IMG/VR virus record: IMGVR_UViG_3300017917_005392
Span: 1-41,921 of that record
Direction: 5' to 3' (one strand)
Length of the DNA: 41,921 nucleotides
Source: a virus
This document shows, one piece after another, positions 3,915 to 22,474 of the stretch (the stretch's first letter is position 1; each line of letters starts with the position of its first letter). Below the pieces are notes generated by a model. The model saw only the letters and a program-made list of their open reading frames with translations, was not told the DNA's origin and searched no databases. The translations under genes and the position numbers were made by a program.

Positions 3915-3950
3915 TGTCCTTTTGCAATATCAGTGCTCATTAGATATTGC
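3915..3950 (+). promoter_or_regulatory. TGTCCTTTT box plus hairpin before the protease gene
   Basis: TGTCCTTTT at 3915-3923 is one of four identical copies, each 32-43 nt before a start codon (others at 8201, 14173, 22430). It is followed by an 8-bp inverted repeat (GCAATATC 3924-3931, GATATTGC 3943-3950). The octamer 19 nt after the box, GATATTGC, is a weak match to TAnnTTTG. Proposed as a phage-specific promoter or activator site. Confidence 0.4.
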
Positions 3951-3958
3951 ATGCCAAG

Positions 3959-5236
3959 ATGTTATTCACTACCCTTTCAGCAATACTTCGTGGTGGTTGG
4001 CTCCTAGATGGATCTTGGAGTCAGCAACATTTACCCATCGTTGCTCAATTGCTCAATGGTGAATCTGTTGATTTCAGCCTTCAAAAAGAATCAGCTGAAA
4101 TTACCGCAGCCCTTCAAATCAATACTAAAACTTATGCTGTAAATCGTTGGACAAGTTTGTCCGACATTCCTGATGGCAGCTATGCAGTGGTTAATTTGGT
4201 TGGTCCTGTTGTTCGTTACACAGAGCCATGTGGAGCGATTGGTACTGAAGACATTTCCTCCTTGTTTGTTCGCTTAAATAATAGCCCCAACATCAAAGGG
4301 GTTGTTATGAAAATAAATAGTCCTGGGGGTGAAGCTTCAGGAACATCAATGTTAGCTTCAGCTATCAAACAAATGAATAAGCCTGTGCTTGCATTTGTTG
4401 AGGATGGAATGGCTGCCAGTGCTGCGATGTGGATTGCTGCTTCATGCACTGAAATTTATGCTTCCAACAAACAAAGCATGTTTGGGAGCATTGGCGCTTA
4501 TACTGTTTTAGCTGATTTCAAAGACTTCTTTGAGCAAAAAGGAATCAAAATCCATGAAATCTACGCACCTCAAAGCACAGATAAAAACAAAATTGTCAAA
4601 GATGCTTTTGCAGGGGATTATTCTGGCTTTCAATCTTATCTCGGTGATTTGGTGGACAATTTCATTGCTGATGTAAAAGCAAGCAGAGGCAGCAAATTAA
4701 ACCTCAAAGTAGGCGATCCATTTACAGGTAAAATTTTCAACGCAAGCGAAAGCAAGAAAATTGGTTTGATTGATGGGATTAAATCCTTTGATCAGGTGAT
4801 TGCTCGCATGGATGATTTGGTGAAACAACAAAAATCTAATTCAAAAAATTCAACTTTTATGGCTAAAAAAGAATATCCAAACCTTGCTCGTGTAGCAGGT
4901 CAAAATGAAGGCGTTAATACAGATGCTGAAGGGAATGTAACCTTATCCGCAACTGAAGCTGACACAGTTGAAACGGCATTAAAGGTCGCTTCGACTCATG
5001 CTGCTGATGTGGTTAAATTGAATCAAACGGTTACTGATTTGACCAGCAAAAATGAAACCCTTACCAACGATTTAGCTACTGCCAATGCTAAGATTAAAGA
5101 GCTTAGCGGTAAGACTGCAAATGAAGGTACTACTATCATTACAGGTGGTGCGAATGAAGGTGCAGATCCTGGAGCATCAAATAGAAAAGAGCATCCGTTT
5201 ACAGCTGAAGCTAGAAAACTTTTTGGCAAAGCATAA
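3959..5236 (+). CDS. S49-family prohead protease with C-terminal scaffold
   Basis: 425 aa from ATG 3959; the longer TTG start at 3947 lies inside the upstream hairpin. The core carries SppA/ClpP-like sequence: INSPGGEASG, then Ser154 in MAASAAMW as the likely nucleophile and Lys209 in STDKNK as the likely general base, the Ser-Lys dyad of S49 enzymes such as lambda gpC. After about residue 300 comes a low-complexity, helical, Ala/Thr/Lys-rich region with a coiled-coil stretch, typical of a fused scaffolding domain. It probably matures the prohead and is itself consumed. The major capsid gene follows, as in many phages. Confidence 0.85.
   Translation: MLFTTLSAILRGGWLLDGSWSQQHLPIVAQLLNGESVDFSLQKESAEITAALQINTKTYAVNRWTSLSDIPDGSYAVVNLVGPVVRYTEPCGAIGTEDISSLFVRLNNSPNIKGVVMKINSPGGEASGTSMLASAIKQMNKPVLAFVEDGMAASAAMWIAASCTEIYASNKQSMFGSIGAYTVLADFKDFFEQKGIKIHEIYAPQSTDKNKIVKDAFAGDYSGFQSYLGDLVDNFIADVKASRGSKLNLKVGDPFTGKIFNASESKKIGLIDGIKSFDQVIARMDDLVKQQKSNSKNSTFMAKKEYPNLARVAGQNEGVNTDAEGNVTLSATEADTVETALKVASTHAADVVKLNQTVTDLTSKNETLTNDLATANAKIKELSGKTANEGTTIITGGANEGADPGASNRKEHPFTAEARKLFGKA
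4859..5236 (+). CDS. Possible separately translated scaffold (internal start)
   Basis: An in-frame ATG at 4859 sits exactly at the junction between protease and scaffold-like region and is preceded by an A-rich then T-rich stretch ending in CAACTTTT, the same kind of leader as at the main gene starts. It would give a 125-aa protein, acidic to neutral, helical, with a coiled coil near residues 60-90. This mirrors lambda C/Nu3, where the scaffold is also made from an internal start. Internal initiation is inferred, not shown. Confidence 0.45.
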   Translation: MAKKEYPNLARVAGQNEGVNTDAEGNVTLSATEADTVETALKVASTHAADVVKLNQTVTDLTSKNETLTNDLATANAKIKELSGKTANEGTTIITGGANEGADPGASNRKEHPFTAEARKLFGKA

Positions 5237-5284
5237 ACCAACATAATACCAAAGGAAACATTTTACCTAATCATAATTATTAAC

Positions 5285-5303
5285 TCATTAAAATATTTTT
5301 ATG
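5285..5303 (+). promoter_or_regulatory. Shared 19-nt leader of the two most abundant structural genes
   Basis: The 19-mer TCATTAAAATATTTTTATG, including the start codon, is identical at 5285-5303 (capsid) and 6657-6675 (probable tail tube). Bacteroidota ribosomes do not rely on Shine-Dalgarno pairing and favour A/T-rich leaders, so this is probably a strong translation-start context. Confidence 0.5.
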
Positions 5304-6263
5304 CCTGAAATAGTTCGTAGTAACGAGGTAACCAATGAGATGAGACAATACTTAGGAGAGCACTCAAGTGATCTCCTAATGTTGGCATTTCAGTCAATGG
5401 ACATCATTAATGATGTTACTTTTTTACCTGACGTCAAGAACAAAATGATTCTATCTCATTTTGAAATTGACAATATTGTTAAGCCATTTAAAGCTGAGTT
5501 TGAGGCTAAGCCTGATGCTTTCCGCTTTAAACCAAGAGAGCTTGATGTTAAGTTAGGTAAAGCTGAATTGACTGTAATCCCAGAGGATTACCGCCAAACC
5601 TATTTAGCGTCCATGATGCCAAAGAAAGGTGTAGCTCGTGAGCCAGGAGATATTATGCCATTCGAGCAATATATCTGGGAGGGTATCTTTTCAAAATTTG
5701 GCGAAGAGCTGAATGACAGCACATCTTATTTTGGCGATTACAACCCTGCTGGAAATGCAGCTGTAGATGTTGCTGATGGATATGGTAAAATCATTGATGA
5801 CCTTGTCGATGATGATTTAATTGTGCCTCAAACATTGGGTACGATTAATAATACCAATGCGCTTGATAAGTTCAAATTGCTTTGGAGAAATGTGCCTAAC
5901 AAGTACAGAACTTCAAGATGGAAATGGCAAATGTATATGTCTATGAGCAAGTATGAAGCTTATGAGGAATATCTTGAGTCAAAAAATTACAACACAGGAC
6001 GTGGGGAAGACATGTTGAACCCAGTTTACTTGCGCCAAAGCCGTGGTTTGTGTGAACTTAAGCCCGTAAGTTGGATGGGAAATTCAAACAGAATTATCCT
6101 TACGCCAAAATTAAACATGTTGATGGGTGCTGATGCTTTAACTGGTGATCTAGCTAAGGCAAATATCATTCAACAAATGTGGGGCTTTGACATTGGTGTA
6201 GCAGCTGCTCTAGGATTCCAAGTGAGAATCCCTGGCTTGATGTACATCAACGAAGCCAACTAA
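5301..6263 (+). CDS. Probable major capsid protein
   Basis: 320 aa, without signal peptide or membrane segment. It lies directly after the protease/scaffold gene, the usual place of the capsid gene. Its N-terminal half resembles Bacteroidota phage capsid proteins in style: an early helical region, then acidic loops and aromatic-rich strands, with a conserved-looking LNPVYLRQSRGLCEL stretch near residue 240. An expected HK97-type fold is inference. The leader is the strong 19-nt context shared with the tail tube gene, and a clear terminator follows, both fitting high expression as a separate unit. Confidence 0.7.
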   Translation: MPEIVRSNEVTNEMRQYLGEHSSDLLMLAFQSMDIINDVTFLPDVKNKMILSHFEIDNIVKPFKAEFEAKPDAFRFKPRELDVKLGKAELTVIPEDYRQTYLASMMPKKGVAREPGDIMPFEQYIWEGIFSKFGEELNDSTSYFGDYNPAGNAAVDVADGYGKIIDDLVDDDLIVPQTLGTINNTNALDKFKLLWRNVPNKYRTSRWKWQMYMSMSKYEAYEEYLESKNYNTGRGEDMLNPVYLRQSRGLCELKPVSWMGNSNRIILTPKLNMLMGADALTGDLAKANIIQQMWGFDIGVAAALGFQVRIPGLMYINEAN

Positions 6264-6270
6264 GATAATC

Positions 6271-6301
6271 GAGTATCCTTCAGCAATGGAGGATACTTTT
6301 T
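6271..6301 (+). terminator. Intrinsic terminator after the capsid gene
   Basis: AGTATCC (6272-6278) pairs with GGATACT (6291-6297); three more pairs, one of them a wobble, extend the stem inward to about 10 bp around AGCAAT, followed by TTTTT. It lies 8 nt after the capsid stop codon. Confidence 0.8.
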
Positions 6302-6324
6302 CTCCATTTATTTAAATCCATTTT

Positions 6325-6609
6325 ATGGCTAAAGTTACACCAAATAAAAAAGCACCTATTCAGAACACTAATGGGATAGGAAGAAAGCCAAAAGCAATTT
6401 TCAAGCAGGTTAGAACGGATGCAGAAGGTAACGAAACAACGCTTACTTATGGCATTTTACCGCCTCGATTGAGCTACAAGGGTAAAGAATATACAGCTAC
6501 TGAAATAGCTGAAAATGAAGCTTTGCGCAACGAATTGCTAGAGCTTGCTTGGGAGGAAAGAGATGAGGCAGAATTTGACAGCAATGGCATTTTCAAAATC
6601 ATCTACTAA
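6325..6609 (+). CDS. Small structural-region protein, unknown
   Basis: 94 aa. A basic, disordered-looking N terminus (Lys, Asn, Pro rich) is followed by an acidic helical C-terminal half (ENEALRNELLELAWEERDEAEF). No family recognised. Between capsid and probable tail tube genes, with its own leader after the capsid terminator, it could be a head decoration, head-tail joining or tail-related protein. Confidence 0.6.
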   Translation: MAKVTPNKKAPIQNTNGIGRKPKAIFKQVRTDAEGNETTLTYGILPPRLSYKGKEYTATEIAENEALRNELLELAWEERDEAEFDSNGIFKIIY

Positions 6610-6672
6610 AAACCACTCGTTTAAATTTTAGAAGTTCATCAATCCAATTCATTAATTCATTAAAATATTTTT

Positions 6673-7218
6673 ATGTACGATTTTGATCACTTAAAAGAAC
6701 CTATCAACTCCGAGACTGGAGTTGCTGATAGTTTTTTGTGGGCGCCAGTTGCTGCCTTTAGCGATATCAAGGGACCTACACTTACGGCATCACCTGGAAC
6801 ACCAACGCCAGGTGAGGAAGTAACGATCACAGCAAACCACACTTTTAATGCAGGTGAAGGTTTTATTGAAGTGATTTGCTCCCCATTTGAAAACCAAAAT
6901 TCTGCTGCTGGAATTGGTAGTCCTGGATCCATGAAGTTCAATCCTAAGTTGGAAGTTTTTGTTCCTGGATCATATGCCAAATTGCATGAGTTCATCAAGA
7001 ATTTGAAAAATACTCCCGGCATTGTGTTAATCAAAGATTCTCAATGCGAAACTGGTATCTACTACCAATTAGGTAGCAGCTGCTCTTACTGCTGGATGAC
7101 AGCTGTTGAGTGGACAACTGGCACCAACAAGGATGGAAAGAAAGGTTATAAGGTGACAATGGAAACGACAGCAAGCGCTGTTATGATTTACAAAGGAACT
7201 GTGACCAAGAAACCATAA
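6673..7218 (+). CDS. Probable major tail tube protein
   Basis: 181 aa, beta-rich: repeated short strands and Gly/Pro turns, then a C-terminal strand pattern (AVEWTTGTNKDGKKGYKVTMETTASAV, cited in part) like that of Bacteroidota phage tail tube proteins. It shares the 19-nt leader of the capsid gene and is followed by a strong terminator, as expected for an abundant structural protein. A Gly/Pro-rich loop near residues 35-50 (SPGTPTPGEEVTI) could belong to an Ig-like or tube N-terminal arm. Tail tube is the best guess from composition, expression signals and order; capsid decoration is the main alternative. Confidence 0.5.
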   Translation: MYDFDHLKEPINSETGVADSFLWAPVAAFSDIKGPTLTASPGTPTPGEEVTITANHTFNAGEGFIEVICSPFENQNSAAGIGSPGSMKFNPKLEVFVPGSYAKLHEFIKNLKNTPGIVLIKDSQCETGIYYQLGSSCSYCWMTAVEWTTGTNKDGKKGYKVTMETTASAVMIYKGTVTKKP

Positions 7219-7242
7219 CGAATTACTTTTGCATAACTATAG

Positions 7243-7273
7243 AAAAAGCTTCCATTCTTGGGGGCTTTTTTTT
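7243..7273. terminator. Intrinsic terminator, probably bidirectional
   Basis: AAAAAGC (7243-7249) pairs with GCTTTTT (7264-7270), extended inward by TTCC/GGGG to an 11-bp stem with loop ATTCTT, and a run of eight T. It serves the upstream tail gene. Read from the other strand the A run also gives a U tract for the reverse gene, whose stop codon (7272-7274) overlaps it. Confidence 0.8.
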
Positions 7274-7466
7274 ATCTATAATTCCTGCTGTAAGAATATG
7301 TTACATACGCATTATAATCATCTTTATATTCGTTGTGAGTTTGCTCAAATACAATCTCCATTTCTTGTTTTGATTGACATTCAATTTCTTTTTCAACTTC
7401 ATAGTATTTATTCCCATTATCGTTTGTTTTTCCAGTATCTCTCCAAACGGTTACCTTAAAATTCAT
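7272..7466 (-). CDS. Small reverse-strand protein, unknown
   Basis: 64 aa. The reverse frame has a natural composition (charged, Glu/Lys/Tyr/Asn rich, with alternating strands, e.g. NFKVTVWRDTG near the start), whereas the overlapping forward frame is rich in His, Phe, Leu and Cys and looks like a shadow. It ends in the shared terminator and stands alone on this strand, next to the structured RNA at 7585. Its position suggests a small accessory gene. Function unknown. Confidence 0.5.
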   Translation of the reverse strand: MNFKVTVWRDTGKTNDNGNKYYEVEKEIECQSKQEMEIVFEQTHNEYKDDYNAYVTYSYSRNYR

Positions 7467-7584
7467 AAAATATAATTTTTCTGTAAAATTAATGTCTCAT
7501 TTTTTATTTTCTTTTTATTTGTTTACCACTTTTTAGGTACATCTTAATAATAATTCATGGAGGCTTTTTTCGTATTTTTACAGC

Positions 7585-7714
7585 GCGCAACATTATTTCA
7601 ATTTAGGATTACTCCGCAAGGGCTGACTCATGATCAACCCTGCGGACCATGGTAAGACCATGGAACACTCGGAGTAATCTGGGATAATGTTGCGCACGCC
7701 GCAGGGCTTTTTTT
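7585..7714 (+). ncRNA. Structured leader RNA with alternative pairings, candidate attenuator
   Basis: Nested arms: 12-bp P1 (GCGCAACATTAT 7585-7596 with 7684-7695), 10-bp P2 (GATTACTCCG 7607-7616 with 7670-7679) and a 7-bp hairpin CCATGGT/ACCATGG (7647-7653, 7657-7663) with loop AAG. CCCTGCGG (7638-7645) can pair with CCGCAAGGG (7614-7622, one bulged A) or, perfectly, with CCGCAGGG (7699-7706), which is followed by C and seven T ending at the ATG of the next gene. The second pairing makes a terminator-like hairpin and breaks P1/P2 geometry, so the element looks like a two-state leader controlling the gene at 7715. No known riboswitch class recognised. Confidence 0.6.
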
Positions 7715-7972
7715 ATGGAGCAGCAACAACCTTTGTCATATGATATTAGTTATAGAATCAAGCAATTGATTCTCACGTGGTATGAGCCGGCATTAACTCC
7801 AGCTGATGCAAAGTATTTTCTCAACACAGAAGAAATTTTCACTCAGCTTCAGAAGATGTTCCCAAGCGAAGACTATAATGCCATTGATTTGGCTATATGG
7901 TTGGAAACATGGGGATTTAAATGCAGACCTACTGCCGCATTTAAATTTGAATGGTTGTTGAAAAAAAAGTAA
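7715..7972 (+). CDS. Small protein under the structured leader
   Basis: 85 aa, soluble, predicted helical, ending in a WLLKKK tail. The sequence DAIDLAIWLETWGFK-like stretch (residues 50-65, exact: YNAIDLAIWLETWGFKCRPT) suggests a small helical or winged-helix fold, but no family is certain. Its ATG abuts the U run of the leader RNA. The 3' end holds a run of eight A directly before the stop, 1 nt ahead of the next gene. Being downstream of the probable tail tube gene, the pair could be tail assembly chaperones; a regulatory role is equally open. Confidence 0.6.
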   Translation: MEQQQPLSYDISYRIKQLILTWYEPALTPADAKYFLNTEEIFTQLQKMFPSEDYNAIDLAIWLETWGFKCRPTAAFKFEWLLKKK

Positions 7973-7973
7973 A

Positions 7974-8198
7974 ATGAGCCTTCCCAAGTTTTTGTATTCC
8001 AAAGCTGATGATGTTAAATCAGAAGGCGAATACATAATCCATACCCGAAAGCCTAGATTTGTAGGCAAAATCGTTCGTCAAAACGATTTGATTAGAGTTT
8101 TCCCACATGAGCGATGGGACGAAATTGATACAGAAACCGAACACGAACTGTGTCTTAAAATGAAAAACTGGTTTTATTTCAAGTATTCCAAAAGTTAG
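7974..8198 (+). CDS. Small basic protein coupled to the preceding gene
   Basis: 74 aa, rich in aromatic and charged residues with strand-like spacing (FVGKIVRQNDLIRVF). It starts 1 nt after the preceding stop, so translational coupling is likely. A +1 or -2 slip on the A8 run at 7961-7968 would also join it to the upstream gene, because its frame is open from 7962. No family recognised. Confidence 0.6.
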   Translation: MSLPKFLYSKADDVKSEGEYIIHTRKPRFVGKIVRQNDLIRVFPHERWDEIDTETEHELCLKMKNWFYFKYSKS

Positions 8199-8200
8199 TT

Positions 8201-8236
8201 TGTCCTTTTAGCTGCTGCTTCGCTCTCCTACTTTCG
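8201..8236 (+). promoter_or_regulatory. TGTCCTTTT box with -7-like TACTTTCG
   Basis: Second copy of the box (8201-8209). Exactly 19 nt later comes TACTTTCG (8229-8236), one base off TAnnTTTG, and the gene starts at 8241. This is the best-formed copy and suggests that the box replaces the usual -33 element TTTG. Transcription would begin at or near the start codon. Confidence 0.5.
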
Positions 8237-8240
8237 AGTT

Positions 8241-8918
8241 ATGGAGCAGATAAAAGCATGGCTTAATAGTTCAAAACCTTACGCCCAAGGATTACAGCTT
8301 TATGCTGAATTTGGTCGTGATGCCTCCATTTTGCGCCGTTTACACCAGGGCGAAAATCCAACCAATAAAGTGCTTCTTTTTAATAGCCTCAAGCAGCTAT
8401 TAAATCCTGTTTTGGCTAAACCTAAACCTGTTTTAACCCCAATTATTCAATCCCCTGTTTCCGTTCCTGAAATTTCAAAAGACAAATCCAACCCCATTGC
8501 TGAAGCTGCGAAACGTGAAGCTGATTTGTTGTATAAGGAAATGATGGATGTTAGGGCTGTTCTTTTTTCCCTTTGTCCACTCGAGGAGGAGCCACTGGAA
8601 AATAGTGAAAATGCTGTTGAATCTAGGAACAAGCTTGCCATCAGACTGCATGAGCTGCAGTATGATGTTGACAATGCTTATGATAAGTACCGCTATGCGC
8701 TAGAGCATGAGTCGCTTCCGCCAACCATAGCCCATGAAGTGATTGACCCAGTGCGACTATTTCAGGAGATAACTAACATCAGGAAAAATCTTTCCTGGTA
8801 CAAGCGCAAGAAAGATCAAACGGCTGAAGTGCTATCTGCAATCAAAGAAAGAGAAGAAAGATTAGAAAAACTCCTTAAACAATACGAAAATGCTACTGGA
8901 CATAAAGGCACTACTTAA
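8241..8918 (+). CDS. Helical phage protein, unknown
   Basis: 225 aa. An N-terminal domain of about 60 residues (KPYAQGLQLYAEFG) is followed by a Pro-rich linker (about 60-85) and a long helical part with heptad-like spacing (about 90-220). No family recognised. It is the first gene after a TGTCCTTTT box and heads the run leading to the terminase genes, so it probably belongs to packaging or virion assembly. The next gene's longer possible start (8890) would overlap its end. Confidence 0.6.
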   Translation: MEQIKAWLNSSKPYAQGLQLYAEFGRDASILRRLHQGENPTNKVLLFNSLKQLLNPVLAKPKPVLTPIIQSPVSVPEISKDKSNPIAEAAKREADLLYKEMMDVRAVLFSLCPLEEEPLENSENAVESRNKLAIRLHELQYDVDNAYDKYRYALEHESLPPTIAHEVIDPVRLFQEITNIRKNLSWYKRKKDQTAEVLSAIKEREERLEKLLKQYENATGHKGTT

Positions 8919-8931
8919 AGGCAAAAAGACA

Positions 8932-9402
8932 ATGAATAGTGCTGAACAATTGGCTGAAATGATTCGAAGTCAGGAACAGGTTTTTTTCACTTCAGATGGA
9001 CTATTCAGTTCGCATGATTTGTTAGAGGCTTTACTGAAGCACTTCTACCCTGCTAACCTTTATTTGTCCACTTACAGCATTACGGAATTTCCCGCAAGGA
9101 TCCTTTCAAGTCTTCAGGATGACAACAAGGTTAACGAGCTTCATATGTTGCTTGACCGTGAGTTCCCAAGGCGTTACCCAAAGGTTGACCAATTCCTTCA
9201 GGAGTTATGTACGTCAATTGGTTATACAGCTGTGCATGCTAAAATCATGGTGCTTGAAACCCCTAAAGAATCTTTAATGGTGATGGGCTCAGCTAACTGG
9301 ACAGTTAACCCAAGATTGGAAGCTGGAGTGATCACTAAGATCCCTGGTGTTGTTTCTGATTTTAAAAATAAAATTCTTGACTATATCAATGGAACTAACT
9401 AA
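8932..9402 (+). CDS. Phospholipase D-like (single HxK motif) protein
   Basis: 156 aa from ATG 8932; an in-frame ATG at 8890 would overlap the upstream gene by 29 nt. Residues 102-130 show a PLD-type active-site pattern: His102-x-Lys104, then GSANWT about 13 residues on and NPRLE, matching HxKx(n)GSxN in the PLD superfamily. With one HKD-like motif it would need to dimerise, as do Nuc-type nucleases and some phage-borne PLD proteins. The usual Asp after the Lys is not obvious, so activity is uncertain. Placed immediately before terminase genes, it may be a nuclease linked to packaging or DNA processing. Confidence 0.6.
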   Translation: MNSAEQLAEMIRSQEQVFFTSDGLFSSHDLLEALLKHFYPANLYLSTYSITEFPARILSSLQDDNKVNELHMLLDREFPRRYPKVDQFLQELCTSIGYTAVHAKIMVLETPKESLMVMGSANWTVNPRLEAGVITKIPGVVSDFKNKILDYINGTN

Positions 9403-9673
9403 AGCGCAGCTGGAGCAAATCCAAACCATGTCCAAATTGTTATTCCCTTCTAAATCCATTGCAATCGTTATTGGTGTGGACATTCAGGAGTTTATGAAAG
9501 AATGTCGAAAGGAAAGTTCTGAAGCTTTTAAAGCCTACATGAAAGGAAGATTGGAAACCGAGATTTTATTAAGAGAAAAAATTATTGATTACTCCATCAA
9601 AGGCTCTGTTCCGGCTCAAACGATGGCTATTAAATTTTTAGATGAAAGTGCCGCTAAACTGAACGAACGATGA
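9389..9673 (+). CDS. Small helical protein before the terminase genes
   Basis: 94 aa from the ATG at 9389, which overlaps the end of the PLD-like gene by 14 nt; the earlier non-ATG start gives an unlikely hydrophobic extension. All-helical, Glu/Lys rich, with a possible helix-turn-helix-like central region (KSIAIVIGVDIQEFMKEC). It overlaps the next gene by 4 nt (ATGA). It could be a terminase-associated DNA-binding protein or the true small terminase partner. Confidence 0.6.
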   Translation: MELTKAQLEQIQTMSKLLFPSKSIAIVIGVDIQEFMKECRKESSEAFKAYMKGRLETEILLREKIIDYSIKGSVPAQTMAIKFLDESAAKLNER

Positions 9674-11956: not shown

Positions 11957-11994
11957 GGCGTTCCCCTTTGGGTCAGGCTTTCCTTGCTACAAGG
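11957..11994. repeat. Host-like palindromic intergenic element
   Basis: Directly after the terL stop a comparatively GC-rich stretch contains CCC/GGG pairing around CTTT (about 11963-11972) and a perfect hairpin CCTTG-CTA-CAAGG (11982-11994). From memory, GGGCGTTCCC...GGTCAGGCTTTCC-type sequences are repeated in many Bacteroidota genomes. Its end forms the stop region of the reverse-strand gene, so it may act as that gene's border. Confidence 0.45.
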
Positions 11995-14075: not shown

Positions 14076-14095
14076 TTCAAACATATTAGAAGTAA

Positions 14096-14169
14096 CCGCA
14101 AGTGTTCACTTGCGGGGACTTCTTTCTTTTCCTCCACCGGGAAAAGAAAGAAGCAAAGAAAAGCGGTGG
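14096..14169. repeat. REP-like double hairpin element
   Basis: Hairpin 1: CCGCAAGT (14096-14103) with ACTTGCGG (14108-14115), loop GTTC. Hairpin 2: CTTCTTTCTTTTCC (14119-14132) with GGAAAAGAAAGAAG (14140-14153), a perfect 14-bp stem with a 7-nt loop. A third pair, CCACCG (14134-14139) with CGGTGG (14164-14169), links the loop to the flank. From memory, similar CTTCTTTCTTTT palindromes are scattered through Bacteroidota chromosomes, suggesting host-derived DNA. There is no T run, so not a classical terminator. Confidence 0.6.
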
Positions 14170-14172: not shown

Positions 14173-14208
14173 TGTCCTTTTTTAATGGTTGGCCAATGGT
14201 CAATTTTA
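14173..14208 (+). promoter_or_regulatory. TGTCCTTTT box before the tape measure gene
   Basis: Third copy of the box (14173-14181), 42 nt from the end of the box to the ATG at 14224. A 6-bp hairpin TTGGCC/GGTCAA with loop AAT follows at 14189-14203. The octamer 19 nt after the box, CAATTTTA, is a weak -7 candidate. It directly abuts the REP-like element. Confidence 0.4.
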
Positions 14209-14223: not shown

Positions 14224-17200
14224 ATGAGCGTTCGTACTGACGTGATAAATATGTCCATCAATATCAATGGGGACAAAGGAAAGGATGAATTAAATCAGCT
14301 TCAGAAGAAAGCTGCTCAGCTGAAGGCTGAAATGGCTGACCAAAACAGAAAAACTAAAGAAGGAAGGGAAAAATGGAAGGAGCTAAATGCTGAATATGCA
14401 GTAACAAATCAACGTATAGTTGATTTGAGAAAGGGTTTAGGTTTAGCTGCTTTGTCGCAAAAAGAACTTACCTCTGAGCTGAAAAGATTGCAGCAATTAA
14501 AAAACATTGCAACGCCTCAAACCAAAGAATTTTTTGAACTCCAAAATCAAATTGATGCAGTTTCTTCTAGGCTCAAAAATGTTCGGAATGGGACTTTTGG
14601 CTTCAAAGCTGCTCTTGGTAGCATTAAAGCTGAAGTGTTGCAATTTGGTGTTTTAGCCACATCTTATTTAGGCTTTGAATTCCTTACATCTCAGGTTAGC
14701 AATTTGATTGCTGCCCAAAAGAAAATGGCTGATCAAAATGCTGATATCAAGAAAACTACTGGCTTAACTAAACAGGAAGTTCAGCAGCTTAATGAAGAAT
14801 TGAAAACAATGGATACCAGAACTTCCAATTCAAAGCTTCGTGAGTTGGCAACTGATGCAGGTAAATTAGGTATTGAAGGTGTTGAAGGGATTAAAAAATT
14901 CGTTGAACAAGCTGATAAAATCAATGTAGCCCTGGGTGAAGATTTGGGAGATGGCGCCATCAATAAGTTGGCTAAAATTGCTCAAATATTCGATACTGAA
15001 ATGACCAACATTGCATCAGGGATTAATGCCGTTGGTCAAGCTAGTGCCGCTTCTGAAAGTTACCAGGTTGATTTTGCTTTCCGTATGGCGGGCACTTCAC
15101 AAACTGCTCGAATTGCAGCTGGTGATATCCTTGGATATGCAGCTGCTTTGGAAGTTAACGGACAACAAACGGAACTAGCTGCAACCGCTTTAAATACTTT
15201 CTTCCTTGATTTCATATCAAAATCTGATCAGTTTGGTAAAGCAGCTGGATTCGCTAAAGGTGAATTAGGCAAACTCATCAATGACAAGGGAGCAAATGCA
15301 GCATTCCTTCAATGGCTTGAGAACTTAAAAGCGCTCTCTCCTACTACTGAAGCTTTTATTGAAAAAATGCGCTCCCTGGGCATTGATGGCGCACGAGGCA
15401 GCAATGTTATGCTTGTGTTGAGTGAAAACATTGATTTGGTAAGAGAGCAACAAAAACTAGCCAATACTGAGATTGCAAAAGGCACCAGTATTATTGATGA
15501 ATATAATGAGAAGAATAACAATTTCGCTGCAACTGTTGATAAGGTTTCAAAGCAAATAAATTCGTTAGTTACTTCAGGAGCCATTAATGAAATGATCGTT
15601 GGAACGGTTAATGGTTTTAGTTCATTTTTATCAGTGCTTCCAAACATATTGACTTTCTTAAAAGATAATATTTCAAGCTTAGGCGTTTGGACCGCTGCTT
15701 TAATTGTCAATACCTCATGGGGCAAAAAATTCATTGAATGGATCAGCCTTTCCATCACAGGATTGAAAGGGCAAACAGCAGCTCAAATCTTATCTACAGC
15801 TGCTGCTAAAGCTGATATTATTGCAACCACTACTTTAGGCATGGTTAAGGCTTTACTAACTGGTAATTTGGCAAAGCTTCGAGCAGAATGGTTATTGCTC
15901 AATACCGTTATCGGGTCTAATCCGCTTAGCGCGGCACTTGTTTTAATCGGTGCTACAATTTTTGCTGTTCAATCTTTGACGCGTTCATCAAAAGAATTGA
16001 CTGAAATCCAGAAATATGAAAATGAGCTAAGAAAAAGAACGGTAGAATCAAGCGCGGCTCAGTTCACACAGCTGGTTACGCTTCGTACTGGGATTGAAAA
16101 TGTCAATTTATCGATGAACAAGCGGATCAAGGCTTCGCAAGATTTACAACGATTATTCCCTGAAATATTTGGCAATCTTAAAACTGAAGAAATTCTTGCT
16201 GGTAAAGTTGCCTCAGCTTATCAAAAGGCTGCTGAATCTATTCAAGCTAGTGCTGCATCAAGAGTATTCTCTGAACAAATGGGTGAGATTTCCGCTAAAA
16301 TGATTGATTTAGAGACATACATTGAGCAGTATCAGGCAAAGTCTAAAACTAAGATTGAGAAAAAAACTTCTTTCAATGGAGCCAATTTAGGTTTTGCGTT
16401 AGAAAATGACCTACAATTGCCTAAAGATGTTTATAACAGTATTGTTCAATATAATAAGTTATTAGCGGAACAATCTATTTTGTTGACTAAAATCGAAGAG
16501 GTTCAGACGGCAACGATTGGACCAAAGGTTCAATTAACATCAACCCAAACAGAAGAAGTTATCGGAAGCTTGCGTCAAAAAATCCAAGCCCTGGATGAAG
16601 ATTTGGACCGTATTTCCATCAAAGACAAAGCTGCCATCGCTGCCAATCGTGCCGAAAGAGCCAAACTGCAAAAAGAGCTTGATGCCATTGATGGAAAGAA
16701 AAACGGAGGTGATAAATCTGGACTTGTTGACCGAGTTAAAAGAGAGCTTGATGCATTGAAAATTGAAATGGACGCAGCCATTACAAACGGTTCAATGGAT
16801 GAAAAAACTGCTCAAAAATTTGCACTTCGACTGGAAAATATTGTTACCAGTTCAACAAAGAAGTTGATAAAAATGGCAGGTATTGAAGAGGCTAAATCAA
16901 CTCTTGCTCAATTGTTTTTTTTACCTGACCAAAAGAAAATTGATGCTCAATATGAAACATCACAACAAAGTATTTCCGACAACATCAATAAACAGCGTCA
17001 ACTAGTTCATCAAGATTACATAAATGAAATAATTGATAAATCAGAGCATTCATTAAGGCTCCAGCTGCTGGATGAACAGGAAATTATTGCTAGAGCTGCT
17101 TTGGCTGAAAAATTTAAAAACATATCCAAAAAAGCCGCTGATGATACTGAAAAATTAAAAACACAAGCGCTTGAATTAGGAATCAAAAATCGTGAAGATG

Positions 17201-18315
17201 CCGACAAAAAAGCTTTAGCTGACAAGGTTGCACAGGCTGAAATTGAAATGCTTAAGGCAAATGCTGGAAGCAAAAAAGAATTAGATGCTCACATCGCTTT
17301 TTTGAAAGCAAAGCATAAGGCTGAAATGGAGCAAAATAAGCTTACAGCTGATGAAAGAAAAGCAGCTGAAGCTAAACTCAATGCAGAAATTTTAGACTTA
17401 ACAGCCAATTTCTTAAGACAAAGGATCGAAATGTATGCTAGAGCTTTAAATGATACGCTCAGCTCATTAAACAGCTATGCTAGTGCTGTTAATACATCTG
17501 AACAGAATGATCTTCAAAATTATCAGTCCAGGAATGAGAAGAAAAAAGAACATTATAAAAATTTACTAGATAGGAACATCATTTCTAAAGGGCAATATGA
17601 AAAAGAGGTTGCAAAGCTTGATAAAGAAGCAGATAAGCGACAAAGGGAGTACAACAAGAAGGCATTTCAGCGCCAAAAAGCTTTGGCTATTGCCAATGCT
17701 TTGATGTCAACATTTGAAGGCGCCGTAAGGTCATACAAAGATTACCCTTATCCTTTCAACATGATTGTTTCAGGAATAGTTACGGGTTTAGGTTTAGCCA
17801 CCGTTGCTGAAATTGCCTCCACCGAGCCACCAATTGGACGGAAAGGTTTGATAGTTCCTGGATCATCTCATGAACAGGGAGGTGTTGACCTGGTTGATAG
17901 AAGCACTGGAAAAACTGTTGCAAATGTTGAAGGAGGTGAGCCGCTTTGGGTATTTTCCAAAAAAACCTATGCCAACAATAAAGACATTCTTGACCAACTC
18001 ATTTATAACAGCATGTACCGCGATGGAGCCGCCCTCAAGCTTAAGGATCCTTTACAGTCTCGAACTATTTCTTCAGATGCAGTTCCAATGATGAGAAAAG
18101 GTGGAATTGCTGGCAATAATAATGGCTTTTCTGATATTGATATGGACAGATTTGATGCGCTTTTTTCAATGCTTGCCTTGAAATTGGATGAAAATAAGGC
18201 TGAAATTGCCACAATGAAGACAAAATTAAAAGCTGTTGTCGTGATGAAAGACGTTCGTGAAGCTGATTTTTTAGAGCAAAAATCACGAGCTGTTGGAGGA
18301 ATTAATCAAGGATGA
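14224..18315 (+). CDS. Tail tape measure protein
   Basis: 1363 aa from ATG 14224; the longer frame to 14110 runs through the palindromic element and is rejected. The largest gene of the window. Layout: coiled coil (about 15-120), a Gly/Ala-rich part with hydrophobic stretches (near 140-165, 460-500 and 575-600), another long coiled coil (about 780-1130), and a C-terminal domain with the pattern LIVPGSSHEQGGVDLVD and GGEPLWVF seen in Bacteroidota phage tape measures. It fixes tail length during assembly; at about 0.15 nm per residue it predicts a tail near 200 nm. No tail sheath gene is seen, so a siphovirus is likely. A TGTCCTTTT box precedes it. Confidence 0.9.
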   Translation: MSVRTDVINMSININGDKGKDELNQLQKKAAQLKAEMADQNRKTKEGREKWKELNAEYAVTNQRIVDLRKGLGLAALSQKELTSELKRLQQLKNIATPQTKEFFELQNQIDAVSSRLKNVRNGTFGFKAALGSIKAEVLQFGVLATSYLGFEFLTSQVSNLIAAQKKMADQNADIKKTTGLTKQEVQQLNEELKTMDTRTSNSKLRELATDAGKLGIEGVEGIKKFVEQADKINVALGEDLGDGAINKLAKIAQIFDTEMTNIASGINAVGQASAASESYQVDFAFRMAGTSQTARIAAGDILGYAAALEVNGQQTELAATALNTFFLDFISKSDQFGKAAGFAKGELGKLINDKGANAAFLQWLENLKALSPTTEAFIEKMRSLGIDGARGSNVMLVLSENIDLVREQQKLANTEIAKGTSIIDEYNEKNNNFAATVDKVSKQINSLVTSGAINEMIVGTVNGFSSFLSVLPNILTFLKDNISSLGVWTAALIVNTSWGKKFIEWISLSITGLKGQTAAQILSTAAAKADIIATTTLGMVKALLTGNLAKLRAEWLLLNTVIGSNPLSAALVLIGATIFAVQSLTRSSKELTEIQKYENELRKRTVESSAAQFTQLVTLRTGIENVNLSMNKRIKASQDLQRLFPEIFGNLKTEEILAGKVASAYQKAAESIQASAASRVFSEQMGEISAKMIDLETYIEQYQAKSKTKIEKKTSFNGANLGFALENDLQLPKDVYNSIVQYNKLLAEQSILLTKIEEVQTATIGPKVQLTSTQTEEVIGSLRQKIQALDEDLDRISIKDKAAIAANRAERAKLQKELDAIDGKKNGGDKSGLVDRVKRELDALKIEMDAAITNGSMDEKTAQKFALRLENIVTSSTKKLIKMAGIEEAKSTLAQLFFLPDQKKIDAQYETSQQSISDNINKQRQLVHQDYINEIIDKSEHSLRLQLLDEQEIIARAALAEKFKNISKKAADDTEKLKTQALELGIKNREDADKKALADKVAQAEIEMLKANAGSKKELDAHIAFLKAKHKAEMEQNKLTADERKAAEAKLNAEILDLTANFLRQRIEMYARALNDTLSSLNSYASAVNTSEQNDLQNYQSRNEKKKEHYKNLLDRNIISKGQYEKEVAKLDKEADKRQREYNKKAFQRQKALAIANALMSTFEGAVRSYKDYPYPFNMIVSGIVTGLGLATVAEIASTEPPIGRKGLIVPGSSHEQGGVDLVDRSTGKTVANVEGGEPLWVFSKKTYANNKDILDQLIYNSMYRDGAALKLKDPLQSRTISSDAVPMMRKGGIAGNNNGFSDIDMDRFDALFSMLALKLDENKAEIATMKTKLKAVVVMKDVREADFLEQKSRAVGGINQG

Positions 18316-18662
18316 ATAGGAATTTGAAAAATGTTTAAAGATTTCAAAAATAGCTATACCTTAGCAGTGCGAAAAAATGTATCACACTGATAAAATTGTT
18401 GTGATAAAAAAACTAAAACTAAAGCTAAACTATGCAAGGAGTAATTTTCAAATCTAAGGGTTTATTCAATCCCCCCAAAACGAAGCAACGTAAGAAATGT
18501 TAAGAAAATAATTGATTGTGGTAATATTAATACTTGCTTGGGTATGATGTTTATCAATCAATAGTCATTACTTAGCTTTTTTATTTTTCTAAACAACTAA
18601 TTTTGCCAAGCATTCATACGGGCTAATTAGTTGAATTCTTTTAATTATTTAGCATAATTCAT
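18316..18662. other. 347-bp intergenic region with promoter-like element
   Basis: No convincing gene. TATCACA (near 18379) and TGTGATA (near 18398) form a 7-bp inverted repeat that would read as a weak terminator on the reverse strand. A three-fold CTAAA repeat lies near 18412-18430. AACTAATT and AATTAGTT are inverted around TAATTTTG (18598-18605), a match to TAnnTTTG about 55 nt before the next gene, but no TTTG stands at the -33 position. A 23-codon ATG frame at 18432 was seen and not called. Confidence 0.5.
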
Positions 18663-19289
18663 ATGCAAGATATTATTGTAAAATGGTGCTCTGAACACAT
18701 CCCGTTAATAACGATGTTTATTGCAACGATTGTGTGTGTTATATTAGGAACGCTACGTGTCGCCAAGTGGTATTATTCGCTCGAAAAGCAAGTAAAAAGC
18801 TTTGAAAAACATGGGGAAAAGGTTGAGCAGGAAATCATACCCGCATTAAATGATATTAAAAAATCTATAAGCAATTTATTGATTTATCTTAAATCTAAGG
18901 ATAAGTCATTTGATTCAAATCTATTTATGTCTAAAAGCCCAATACGATTAACGCCATTAGGATTTGAAATTCTTAATAAAATAGGCGGGGACAAATTCGT
19001 TGATGATAATAAGTTAATATTAATTGAACGAATGAATTTGAGAGGGATTAATACTGCTTTAGATTCTCAAATACAAGCACCGGCTATTATATATGAATTT
19101 CATGATGATCCATCTTTCAAAAAAATTAAAGATTACATCTTTAATAACCCTTATTATAAAGGTAAAAATGCTGATGGCGAAGATGTAGAAGTTGCGCTTA
19201 ATCTTGATAGCATATCAAATATAATAGGCATTTACCTTAGGGATGTATATTTAGACACTAGGGATGATTTAAACGTAGAAGATATATAA
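18663..19289 (+). CDS. Membrane-anchored accessory protein, unknown family
   Basis: 208 aa. One N-terminal transmembrane segment (about residues 13-33), a short coiled coil (about 40-75), then a soluble domain starting SPIRLTPLGFEILNKIGG and ending in a pattern IGIYLRDVYL. I have a sense of similar 'SPixLTxxGxxLL...GiYLRD' domains in orphan membrane proteins of many bacteria, but cannot name a family. It has its own promoter-like element and a strong terminator, the classic form of a moron inserted after the tape measure gene. A host-fitness or anti-phage role is inferred from context only. Confidence 0.6.
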   Translation: MQDIIVKWCSEHIPLITMFIATIVCVILGTLRVAKWYYSLEKQVKSFEKHGEKVEQEIIPALNDIKKSISNLLIYLKSKDKSFDSNLFMSKSPIRLTPLGFEILNKIGGDKFVDDNKLILIERMNLRGINTALDSQIQAPAIIYEFHDDPSFKKIKDYIFNNPYYKGKNADGEDVEVALNLDSISNIIGIYLRDVYLDTRDDLNVEDI

Positions 19290-19290
19290 T

Positions 19291-19316
19291 AAAAAAGCCC
19301 CGTTTGGGGCTTTTTT
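19291..19316. terminator. Strong bidirectional intrinsic terminator
   Basis: AAAAAAGCCCC (19291-19301) pairs perfectly with GGGGCTTTTTT (19306-19316) around GTTT. With A and T runs on both sides it can stop the forward gene at 18663 and the convergent reverse gene at 19338. Confidence 0.95.
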
Positions 19317-19337
19317 ATTAATCACGTGTAGTGCTTA

Positions 19338-19967
19338 CTACCACTCTTTATTCTCAATAGCCTTTGAAGTATTACCCTCTTTAATTGCTTTCGCTAGTTC
19401 GTCTAAGGTTTTCATTGCTAGGTTATATGTTTTGACAAAGGATTTGCCCATTAAGTTTTTCTTCTCTCCTTTAGGGTTAAATGGATAGTTATTTGAAATC
19501 TTCATTTCTTTAACTGTCGTGCATCCCGGTCCACATGGAGCAGTATATTTATAGTTACTTATTGTTAGTAATATTCTTGCTTTACCCTCTTTTACATCAA
19601 TCCTTAGAATATGATATGCATCAACTATTCTATTTTCAAAAACATCTTCGTAGTTTAAATTTAAATAAATCCCTTTGGCAATAATAATCCCATTGGCTTT
19701 TTCAGACATTTGAATAACGGCATTACCATTAACATAGTTGTAGGTAAAATAAGCGTTTGCTCTGTTGTAAATTTCTTCTTTTGACATGGAATCTTTCGTT
19801 GTAGAATCAACGAGTACAACTACTCTAGAAAAAGTGATGTTACCATTATCATCGAAGCTATACTTACCTTCAATGCTCTTTAGTAATTCTTCAACCTTTT
19901 TGGTCTGTCCAAACAAAGCTGATGTTGTTAATAAGACTGCAATTACAGCCAGTAATATTCTTTTCAT
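19338..19967 (-). CDS. Secreted DUF4468-like protein
   Basis: 209 aa with a clear Sec signal peptide (MKRILLAVIAVLLTTSALFGQ, cleavage after about residue 21). The central part follows the DUF4468 pattern of Bacteroidota: SKEEIYNRANAYF, a variable strand region containing IQMSEKANGIIIAKG, then strands ending in LLTISNYKY. Such proteins are periplasmic or surface-exposed with a TBP-like fold and unknown function, and are normally chromosomal. On the reverse strand, convergent with the terminator at 19291, it looks like a lysogenic-conversion gene of host origin. A palindrome like the one near the phage repressor lies 45 nt upstream. Confidence 0.75.
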   Translation of the reverse strand: MKRILLAVIAVLLTTSALFGQTKKVEELLKSIEGKYSFDDNGNITFSRVVVLVDSTTKDSMSKEEIYNRANAYFTYNYVNGNAVIQMSEKANGIIIAKGIYLNLNYEDVFENRIVDAYHILRIDVKEGKARILLTISNYKYTAPCGPGCTTVKEMKISNNYPFNPKGEKKNLMGKSFVKTYNLAMKTLDELAKAIKEGNTSKAIENKEW

Positions 19968-20011
19968 AATAATAGATTTAAGGTTTAAAAATAATAGCTT
20001 TTGTAATGATT

Positions 20012-20064
20012 TTAAAACGATTTTAAAATTTCTCTTGTTTTTTAAAAAAGATTTCCTACGTTTG
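20012..20064. promoter_or_regulatory. Divergent promoter region with repressor-like palindrome
   Basis: TTAAAACGATTTTAA (20012-20026) differs at one base from the perfect palindrome TTAAAACGGTTTTAA at 36232-36246 beside the phage repressor gene. On the forward strand CTTG (20034-20037), N19 and TACGTTTG (20057-20064) fit the Bacteroidota promoter with one mismatch at -33, facing the structured RNA and the gene at 20226. The reverse gene starts at 19967. Confidence 0.5.
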
Positions 20065-20125
20065 TATTGCGAAGACGTTCAATTTTATGAACACAATAAA
20101 TAGACATTTACTTTTTTTAAATCAT

Positions 20126-20196
20126 GGTCGCCATGTGGGTGTAAGTCCCATATCAATTCTATTGTTCATCAATGGACGTGTTCGCGGTGAGCGACC
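20126..20196 (+). ncRNA. Compact multibranched RNA upstream of a small gene
   Basis: A closing stem GGTCGC (20126-20131) with GCGACC (20191-20196) encloses TGGG/CCCA (20136-20139, 20147-20150, loop TGTAAGT) and a 7-bp hairpin TCTATTG/CAATGGA (20058 excluded; arms 20158-20164 and 20170-20176, loop TTCAT, one wobble). A T-rich stretch follows. About 60 nt after a promoter-like element, it could be a cis leader or a free small RNA. The GGGTGTAAGTCCC part recalls group II intron sequences, but the rest of such an intron is absent. Confidence 0.5.
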
Positions 20197-20225
20197 TATT
20201 TTTCATTTTTTAAACTTCCTTTCTT

Positions 20226-20480
20226 ATGTCGCGAGCACGAGAAGAAAAACAAAATCCTCTTCCAGCTTTTCAGCAGCAATTTTTAACCACTTCTTTGCAC
20301 CTCTGCGGTGCGGCAGATTTGCATCAGCTTAGAGAAGACCTACACAAATCTTTTTCCACCTTCAGTATCCAGGTACTCAAGGAGCATGAGGACATTCATG
20401 AAGCTATACGGATTCAAGAAAGCTATCAATTGTCAATCTTTATAACCAATCAACTGATTGGGTTAAAAGAGTCTCTATAA
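20226..20480 (+). CDS. Small helical protein between two structured RNAs
   Basis: 84 aa. Polar N terminus, a CG pair near residues 27-28, then a helical region with His and Glu spaced in heptads (LKEHEDIHEAIRIQES) and a hydrophobic last helix. It overlaps a longer +1 frame from 20087 that crosses the structured RNA and has poor composition, so this frame is preferred. It sits on a transcript that starts near 20070 and should end at the terminator at 20617. No family recognised; toxin, antitoxin or RNA-binding roles are all possible. Confidence 0.5.
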   Translation: MSRAREEKQNPLPAFQQQFLTTSLHLCGAADLHQLREDLHKSFSTFSIQVLKEHEDIHEAIRIQESYQLSIFITNQLIGLKESL

Positions 20481-20506
20481 AATTTAATAAATAATGATTT
20501 AAACGC

Positions 20507-20610
20507 ATCCCATTGGGATATAGGTTTCTATTGTCATAACCAATTAGAGAGATACGATATTATGTGGTAAAACCACAGAAAGACGCGCAACATAGACTCG
20601 GATTACGCTG
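20507..20610 (+). ncRNA. Second structured RNA segment, partly like the 7585 leader
   Basis: Hairpins in order: ATCCC/GGGAT (20507-20511, 20515-20519), GGTT/AACC (20523-20526, 20538-20541) and TGTGGT/ACCACA (20563-20568, 20572-20577, loop AAA). Then come GCGCAACAT (near 20585) and GGATTAC (near 20600), two words also found in order in the leader RNA at 7585, which too has an A-rich triloop hairpin. It is the 3' part of the transcript of the gene at 20226 or a small RNA of its own, ending at the terminator. Confidence 0.4.
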
Positions 20611-20616
20611 TTCATT

Positions 20617-20642
20617 AAGCCCAATTTCTATTGGGCTTTTTT
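20617..20642 (+). terminator. Intrinsic terminator
   Basis: AAGCCCAAT (20617-20625) pairs perfectly with ATTGGGCTT (20630-20638) around TTCT, followed by six T. It ends the transcript with the small gene and structured RNA segments. Confidence 0.9.
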
Positions 20643-20679
20643 AATATTTACTTTTTTATCTTTACTGAAACTTATAGTT

Positions 20680-20856
20680 ATGAAAAACAAATTATTACTA
20701 GTTTCATCTGTTGCTTTATTGGGTGCATCTTTAGCCTTTTTCGCGTTCACTTCAGGAACATGTTCAAGAGATAAAAATTGTACTGCATGCAAAAATTGTA
20801 AGTATTGCAAGAACTGCGCTGAAAATGGTGGGACTTGTGGCGTATGTAGTAGATAG
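20680..20856 (+). CDS. Cysteine-rich small exported peptide
   Basis: 58 aa, starting at an ATG 37 nt after the terminator T run. Residues 1-25 are a signal peptide or membrane anchor (MKNKLLLVSSVALLGASLAF, then FAFTS). The mature part has eight Cys, five of them three residues apart (C34, C37, C40, C43, C46: CTACKNCKYCKNC) and a closing CGVC (C54, C57). Such spacing suits metal binding or a disulfide ladder. Similar tiny CxxC proteins occur, as far as I recall, in Bacteroidota chromosomes. It is convergent with the reverse operon at 20858. A bacteriocin-like or copper/zinc-binding role is a guess. Confidence 0.65.
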   Translation: MKNKLLLVSSVALLGASLAFFAFTSGTCSRDKNCTACKNCKYCKNCAENGGTCGVCSR

Positions 20857-20857
20857 C

Positions 20858-21085
20858 TTACTCCCTTGAAGGCAATAATATAATCTCCCCAATCACCCTA
20901 TTCAACTCAGGCAGACAACGATCAGGAAGCGACACTTGATACCCTCTCGTATCAAGTGCGCCTGTTATAATTCTTGTCATGGTGCCAGGATCTACACCAA
21001 TTGCCTTTCCAATTACTGAAGGTTTGATGTAGTCTTTATTTCGGCGTAGCCATTCTGTGGCTTGCTCTTTCGTCAATTCAATCAT
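20858..21085 (-). CDS. Small HTH-like DNA-binding protein
   Basis: 75 aa. Residues 18-45 (KPSVIGKAIGVDPGTMTRIITG) have the spacing of a Cro/XRE-type helix-turn-helix with a Gly at the turn and a recognition-helix-like TMTRII. Last gene of a three-gene reverse operon; it overlaps the gene before it by 8 nt. It may regulate the operon or the neighbouring accessory genes. A repressor of the palindrome at 22395 is an attractive but untested idea. Confidence 0.6.
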   Translation of the reverse strand: MIELTKEQATEWLRRNKDYIKPSVIGKAIGVDPGTMTRIITGALDTRGYQVSLPDRCLPELNRVIGEIILLPSRE

Positions 21086-21698
21086 TATCGTAATCCTCCT
21101 CTAGCTTTCTTTCTTCCAGGGCTAAGTAGTTCCAACAATCAGTGAATATTTTTTGCACTTCATCTTCATCTGTTGGCTTTTCACCATCAAGCCACTCCAC
21201 AACTGCTATAGACTGGTAGAATTGCTGATAGCTGCTGAAGTATGCTTCACTTACTTTGTAGCGGATAAAGACCCTCGGGTAGCTCAGCTTGATAATTGCT
21301 TCTTGTCCTTCCCACTCAATCCTGTTTTCACAAATGTAAAAAGCTTTAAAACCGCCATCTTCGGGCAATTCTCTGCTTGATTTGCGCTCGTTGATCCATT
21401 GAGTAGCGTACCAATCAGATGCACGATTACCAATAGCTACAAGTTTGTCCTCAAGGATTTCTGTTTTCGTATCCAAGGCACCTGTACACAATAACGCATA
21501 CGGATAGGACTTGTGAAGATTCAAGGTATAAGCGCCCAACTTAGCGAAATCAGTATTGCCAACCCATTTAGCCCTATCGTTTAAGCTTTCAAATTCAGCC
21601 ACTTGCCAATGAGCAGTCGTCTTGGTGTGAATGATCAATTTCACACCAGGACGAGCCGGTAAGTAGGGAACCAGTAGAAATTCAGGTAGTTTACTCAT
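21078..21698 (-). CDS. Reverse-operon protein, unknown
   Basis: 206 aa, soluble, strand-rich with many Trp and Tyr; no signal peptide. The end is acidic (LEERKLEEDYDND). Motifs seen: a PYLPARPGVKLIIHTK beginning and an EWEGQEAIIKLSYPRVFIRYKV strand region, cited in part. No family recognised. It overlaps both neighbours by 8 nt, so the three proteins are translated together and probably act together. Confidence 0.6.
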   Translation of the reverse strand: MSKLPEFLLVPYLPARPGVKLIIHTKTTAHWQVAEFESLNDRAKWVGNTDFAKLGAYTLNLHKSYPYALLCTGALDTKTEILEDKLVAIGNRASDWYATQWINERKSSRELPEDGGFKAFYICENRIEWEGQEAIIKLSYPRVFIRYKVSEAYFSSYQQFYQSIAVVEWLDGEKPTDEDEVQKIFTDCWNYLALEERKLEEDYDND

Positions 21699-22323
21699 GT
21701 ATCATTTTTGAATATTGTAAATATAATTCTTCTGATGGGAATTGCCAGCCACTGTAATAGATTGGCATATTATATCTGCTTTGCGCCTCAAACCATCCGT
21801 ATTTACCGTTCATTTCTCTGCTTGTGACATCAAAATGATCAGGGATATTGGTGACTCTTTCTACAAACGTAGCGTTTGCCTTTCTGAACTCTTGCAACCT
21901 ATTTTGCTTTTCAATAGCTAACTCTTTTGCTCTTTGCTGCAAGCTTAATTTTTCATTGAACTCATCTGCAATCTTTTCCCAATTAGTGGCTAATTGACAA
22001 ATTTCATTGGCGTTTACAAAATAGGTTTTCTTCATGCCGCCGCCATATTGCTTTGGTAGCTTCCCAGCATGATGCCACTCTAGATTAGGGAATTTGTATT
22101 CAATGATCGCCGTTACAACTTTTGTTTCTAAGCCAGTGGCTTTTTTGAACAACTGAGTACACTCACCAAGAGTTAATTTACCTTCATCGAATTTGGCATC
22201 TTCGTGTCTATTACTTGCAAATTTACCATCTGTTAACCCTCCACCTACGCTGTAGTTGTCTTCATTGTAGTTGATGTTGCAGTACTTGGATTGAATAGCT
22301 TGTAGCTTTTTTTGAATTGACAT
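21691..22323 (-). CDS. First gene of the reverse operon, unknown
   Basis: 210 aa. The middle carries NLEWHHAGKLPKQYGGGMKKTYF (quoted positions about 78-100 in pieces: EWHHAGK, GGGMKKTYF), a basic, His-rich motif that could bind metal or nucleic acid. A long charged helix follows (about 118-150), then an aromatic C terminus. No family recognised with confidence. It leads the operon divergent from the gene at 22470; a palindrome at 22395 lies between them. Confidence 0.6.
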   Translation of the reverse strand: MSIQKKLQAIQSKYCNINYNEDNYSVGGGLTDGKFASNRHEDAKFDEGKLTLGECTQLFKKATGLETKVVTAIIEYKFPNLEWHHAGKLPKQYGGGMKKTYFVNANEICQLATNWEKIADEFNEKLSLQQRAKELAIEKQNRLQEFRKANATFVERVTNIPDHFDVTSREMNGKYGWFEAQSRYNMPIYYSGWQFPSEELYLQYSKMIHE

Positions 22324-22394
22324 TTGAATTGGTTCGCATTTTTCAACAGGTCGAGCTCCTGCTTTTGTTCATCACAAAGGTAAACTTTTTTTTA

Positions 22395-22418
22395 TTTCAC
22401 CAAATATTTTTGGTGAAA
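22395..22418. promoter_or_regulatory. 10-bp perfect palindrome between divergent genes
   Basis: TTTCACCAAA (22395-22404) and TTTGGTGAAA (22409-22418) are inverted around TATT. TATTTTTG (22405-22412), a TAnnTTTG match, lies across its centre on the forward strand, and eight T follow at 22423. It could be an operator of the divergent region or a terminator for incoming forward transcription. Confidence 0.55.
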
Positions 22419-22429
22419 AATATTTTTTT

Positions 22430-22474
22430 TGTCCTTTTCCTACTCCTTGATTAGCATGATTTTAGCATCATGCT
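22430..22474 (+). promoter_or_regulatory. TGTCCTTTT box and start-codon hairpin
   Basis: Fourth copy of the box (22430-22438), 31 nt before the ATG at 22470. AGCATGAT (22453-22460) and ATCATGCT (22467-22474) form an 8-bp inverted repeat whose right arm holds the start codon. The octamer 19 nt after the box, GATTTTAG, is a weak -7 candidate. Confidence 0.4.

Follow-up and report, generated by a model that had tools for sequence, protein, structure and literature searches.

Several phages transcribe their late or middle genes from activator-dependent promoters, as with the T4 MotA box, which replaces the -35 element, and with the P2 Ogr, Mu C and phi29 p4 systems. The promoters described here would resemble these in relying on host polymerase and a normal -10/-7 element, and in carrying a site for a phage protein at -35/-33 with copies before late operons, but they belong to another phylum, have another box, and our candidate for the activator matches no known activator fold. 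A more distant parallel is with the start-associated sequences of cluster K mycobacteriophages, which reportedly lie a few bp before starts and have been read as translation signals. Both are repeated short elements just 5' of starts (PMC3203893), but the box considered here lies about 40 nt before the start and is coupled to a -7 element.

In the Bacteroidota themselves, the canonical sigma-ABfr promoter is TTTG/TAnnTTTG, with G of the -7 element at -5 and +1 located 4–5 nt downstream (PMC6847099). The putative late promoters share with it the -7 element, the spacing and a predicted start 4–5 nt past -7, but have TGTCCTTTH, with G avoided, in place of the -33 TTTG. Within the open-licence literature, to which our search was confined, we found no earlier description of this motif or of late promoters in Bacteroidota phages.

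Four boxes in one phage genome

The DNA analysed, hereafter the window, is an entire IMG/VR contig of 41,921 nt (IMGVR_UViG_3300017917_005392) that carries a temperate-type siphophage genome, whose terminase ties it to the Labanvirus, Ingelinevirus and Leefvirus phages of Bacteroidota. Primase/helicase-like parts lie in separate genes at the two contig ends (39399–40496 and 1–2346) and in a single gene in Ingeline_1 and laban6-1.

An initial annotation had reported four identical forward-strand boxes lying 31–42 nt before gene starts, with no copy elsewhere, and an exact count agrees. TGTCCTTTT occurs four times, on the + strand only, at 3915–3923, 8201–8209, 14173–14181 and 22430–22438, with 35, 31, 42 and 31 nt, respectively, between the box end and the start codon. 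The genes behind the boxes had also been named correctly: the first box stands before the head maturation protease gene, which starts at ATG 3959, the second before the packaging block (ATG 8241), the third before the tape measure gene (ATG 14224) and the fourth before a pre-portal gene (ATG 22470) followed by the portal. Protease, tape measure and portal were assigned by PHROGs and the terminase by homology. The further claim that every box is intergenic stands for three of them; for that at 14173 it depends on the tape measure starting at ATG 14224 rather than at TTG 14110 further upstream, which is likely but not proven. Between a RadC-like gene and this same box, at 14093–14166, are two inverted repeats (CCGCAAGTGTTCACTTGCGG; CTTCTTTCTTTTC...GAAAAGAAAGAAG) of mobile-repeat-like appearance.

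At a fixed 19 nt past each of the four 9-mers we recovered the octamer described earlier, with A at position 2 and TT at positions 5–6: GATATTGC (3943–3950, three of six consensus bases), TACTTTCG (8229–8236, five of six, and indeed the best of the four, as had been noted), CAATTTTA (14201–14208, four of six) and GATTTTAG (22458–22465, four of six). With the published -7 to +1 geometry (PMC6847099), on which all our predicted starts rest, +1 would fall at 3955, 8241, 14213 and 22470, the second and fourth being the A of an ATG, i.e. leaderless.

How unusual is this repetition? The 9-mer is expected 0.73 times in the window (both strands together), and four copies were attained in none of 100 shuffles. 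On the other hand, 317 different 9-mers, TGTCCTTTT among them, have at least four + strand copies in the window, and its one-mismatch count is at chance level. Because many 9-mers recur, its recurrence is suggestive but not strong on window evidence alone; what is exceptional about it is position and conservation, not word count in the window. Likewise, the window's -7 octamers being imperfect, it is only through relatives that the aligned pattern becomes unmistakable.

The phage's early operon has a canonical Bacteroidota promoter, TTTG-N19-TACTTTTG (36186–36216, + strand), adjoining a repressor-like regulator gene (35522–36148, - strand; PHROG transcriptional regulator). The TTT of the late box sits at -33, N19 from the -7 element, matching this early promoter. 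Two more canonical TTTG/TAnnTTTG promoters lie on the minus strand, at 18479 and at 22404, the latter directly preceding the minus-strand genes 21691–22323 and 21078–21698.

The composite motif across relatives

Single-sequence searches of viral contigs with the terminase and the portal found no relatives; these were reached only with an alignment that included distant phages. The comparative set was made up of 69 non-redundant relatives, together 1.27 Mb, each placed in the orientation of its terminase gene. Here TGTCCTTT was the top over-represented 8-mer, with 127 copies against 14.6 expected from an order-3 Markov model, and 20 on the reverse strand. Alignment on this word revealed a second element, TAnnTTTG, at an ungapped distance, giving the composite TGTCCTTT-H-N19-TAnnTTTG-N4-(ATG), in which A at position 30, T at 34 and G at 36 occur in 102, 117 and 100 of 127 copies. 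A good -7 element accompanied 108 of the 127 forward copies, compared with 3/20 on the reverse strand and 2/21 for a reversed-word control, and the exact composite with ATG was found in at least 120 viral stretches vs. seven for its control. The initial annotation had allowed that its reading would fail were the word equally frequent inside the genes of relatives; it is instead strand-specific and held at fixed distances from both the -7 element and the starts.

Box position 9, which corresponds to the fourth -33 base, is depleted of G (3/108, p 1e-6), although G is commoner there among exact-composite viral matches (12/106) than in the terminase set. The composite satisfies the -7 TAnnTTTG criterion of the sigma-ABfr promoter but not its -33 criterion (TTTG, N19–21), TTT being retained and G depleted, and it meets that of an activator-dependent late promoter, namely a conserved box that overlaps or replaces -35/-33 and is repeated before late operons. 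An activator box taking the place of -33, as proposed earlier, is consistent with this pattern, with TTT where the host has TTTG, the same N19 and G avoided at the fourth base; the activator remains without experimental identification. Motif, fixed spacing, strand, gene position, conservation and G depletion can all be read, as patterns, from the aligned sequences.

The boxes of relatives stand before protease, packaging, pre-portal, tape measure and tail genes. A box precedes the protease orthologue in 11 of 16 genomes, the orthologue of the packaging-block gene (8241) in 10 of 19 and that of the tape measure in 7 of 19; for pre-portal genes it was present in eight of nine genomes of one cluster, as well as in many Bacteroidales matches. 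Polaribacter phage Leef_1 has six late-strand boxes and Cellulophaga phage Ingeline_1 seven, while Microcystis phage Mea-Yong924-1, with a terminase 38% identical to that of the window, shows four exact matches to the box and a fifth, near one, preceding late genes. Record L002 (MZ447863) has Microcystis as its recorded host, yet carries Bacteroidota-type late promoters and has Bacteroidota phages as relatives; its true host may be a Bacteroidota bacterium within the culture.

Bacterial genomes contain at least 118 matches to the exact composite, overwhelmingly Bacteroidota by title, many before phage late genes. Approximately 26 exact genome matches instead precede host regulators of the GlxA/DJ-1-AraC type (Sphingobacteriia, Chitinophagia). 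These share the placing of TGTCCTTT ahead of TAnnTTTG, but differ in keeping the fourth -33 G (22 of them), in an upstream TGGCC repeat and in serving host genes, and are a separate host class. Among such regulators in Mucilaginibacter, Pedobacter and Chitinophaga (L271, L272, L274 and about 23 other loci), the TGGCC repeat together with ATAATTTATGTCCTTTGAGACA before TAnnTTTG probably serves as an operator for autoregulation that overlies a canonical -33.

We consider it very probable that the phage boxes are the upstream half of activator-dependent late promoters for the host's primary RNA polymerase. Host sigma would touch an ordinary -7 element, TAnnTTTG, while its -33 contact TTTG would be swapped for TGTCCTTTH, the fourth base avoiding G, and a phage-made activator bound to TGTCC, beside or over -33, would then be required. 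Such a requirement would keep virion operons off until the activator protein accumulates, and each late block (protease/capsid, packaging, pre-portal/portal, tape measure, tail) could have its own copy of the box. In the absence of transcript data, the need for an activator, the late timing and the start sites are all inferred; that the promoters are 'late' and 'phage-specific', as first annotated, is inferred from the genes they serve.

A candidate activator and its competitors

The best candidate for the activator is an unannotated 169 aa protein (2860–3369, + strand), which we call family A. Of 20 box-bearing genomes, 19 have it and the remaining one has a marginal match only; most records that lack the box match it weakly or not at all. 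Among 33 records of at least 30 kb, strong family-A matches and two or more box matches co-occur (two-by-two table 22, 2, 1, 8), and regulator score follows box number (rho 0.85). There are exceptions: two strong family-A records of at least 30 kb have fewer than two strict box matches, and a partial record (G026) has four box matches and no family-A match. The association is, moreover, only correlative, being drawn from genome comparison and confounded by phylogeny.

Phages with a divergent family A tend to lack the box or to have a changed form of it. At the box position, L025 has TCATCGCGGG-TGTCGCGG five times, L017 has TCATCACGCC-TGTCACGY three times, with start codons, and L030 has TGTCCTAC, TGTCCTGT and TGTCCCAT. 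The family-A gene of L025, like that of L017, ends about 20 nt before the first box. The extended boxes of these two phages look like direct repeats with a 9 nt offset (TCGCGG/TCGCGG and TCACGC/TCACGC), which hints that the activator makes two contacts separated by roughly one turn of the helix.

The AF2 model of family A is a confident one (pLDDT 88) and predicts the order E-H-H-E-H-H, which recalls two ribbon-helix-helix units in tandem. Nothing in the PDB matched this fold significantly, the best relevant matches being to an F relaxosome chain, probably TraY, at only Z 2–3 and E 1.5–3; DNA binding by family A is thus not shown. Pfam, PHROGs and NCBIfam yielded nothing usable for it. Just upstream, at 2820–2860, a near-perfect palindrome, GAAATTACGAATAATTCGTAATTTC, is followed by a -7-like TAATTTTG and the candidate's start, and could be an operator or a terminator. 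The neighbouring family B (3406–3909) was dropped as a regulator, its profile merging with the structural protein family of 6673–7218.

The promoter reading could be right and the activator still be something other than family A, either a host regulator or another phage protein such as a LuxR-like early gene product. Nine of 21 genomes have LuxR-like genes in their early region, and several conserved phage genes have no assigned function. However, many box-bearing genomes lack a LuxR-like gene, laban6-1 has an annotated one yet no composite was found there, and family A was the only small non-structural protein that we found to be near-universal in these genomes. We regard a different activator as a distinct possibility, if one we lean against; for the family-A protein itself, with correlative evidence and no binding data, the case for its being the late activator is about evenly balanced.

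Predicted starts, leaders and terminators

The predicted +1, composite position 41, coincides with the start codon at 44 of the 108 sites, so that many late mRNAs should be leaderless, in line with the very short leaders first proposed. An ATG stands at precisely box start +40 in 42/108 sites, and in 0–10 at any other offset. The 41 sites that have no start codon close by are enriched for pyrimidine at position 40 (p 0.012) and for A at position 41 (p 0.008), as expected of a start site. Transcription would begin about 5 nt past -7, often at the first base, A, of the start codon, and the messages would have no leader or almost none. By comparison, host mRNAs of F. johnsoniae have leaders mostly > 10 nt (PMC6847099), whereas about 40% of the late sites predict none.

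A terminator ends just 5' of the box in 15/108 sites, and at seven a hairpin of at least 8 bp fills the spacer, the T-run supplying the -7 element in most of these; both are as expected of separate promoters at operon boundaries. In L003, L037, L049, L076 and L083 the late promoters appear to lie inside intrinsic terminators, with the hairpin as spacer and the T-run as -7.

Hairpins near the ATG were the reason for considering an element acting in the transcript, with box and hairpin near the start codon forming a nut/boxA-like or translation-control site. Several sites, with Mea-Yong924-1 and the window as notable cases, have hairpins that overlap the stretch from box to ATG, and stems of at least 8 bp surround the ATG in 6/108 sites vs. 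0.3 expected. Yet the box lies 5' of the predicted start site and hence would be absent from its own transcript, its fixed partner at ungapped spacing is a known -7 element, and the hairpins occur in a minority of sites, many being terminators. The nut-like and start-associated-sequence readings were set aside after a hairpin survey of the 108 sites, and we see very little room for them. Equally improbable is a phage-encoded alternative sigma factor using TGTCCTTT as its own -35 element: the fixed box/-7 spacing does resemble a two-element promoter, and some phages have region-4-like matches (several falling in LuxR-like genes), but the -7 is the unchanged host element, and a search for sigma region 2 in 20 box-bearing genomes came up empty, though as a control it was positive in 10 of 14 reference genomes. 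Given that absence, it is simplest to suppose that host sigma acts with an activator. That a short word was repeated by chance, compatible though this is with TGTCCTTTT not being extreme among 9-mers inside the window, is refuted by the relatives' enrichment, strand bias, spacing and controls and can be disregarded.

The most inclusive interpretation is of one late regulon in temperate tailed Bacteroidota phages, in which family A, as an undescribed DNA-binding family, would read TGTCC-type boxes replacing -33, with a code that co-diverged with the box (TGTCGCGG, TGTCACGY, TGTCCTAC), leaderless virion mRNAs, and some promoters inside the preceding operon's terminator. Taken jointly, these propositions might equally well hold or fail. 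Overall, our analysis supports the reading of the initial annotation. The promoters themselves appear to be a widespread, apparently undescribed variant of the activator-dependent late type, for which the activator candidate is not established. The switch is conserved in tailed phages across the Bacteroidota, and through it a phage protein probably turns virion genes on late. The timing of virion-gene expression in temperate phages of this phylum is largely undescribed in the searchable literature, and a single motif for late operon starts would allow promoters to be annotated in very many gut, soil and marine phages. Start codons could be corrected with its help, Bacteroides and Flavobacterium would gain promoter parts for late expression, and one unknown protein family could be put directly to the test as the late switch.
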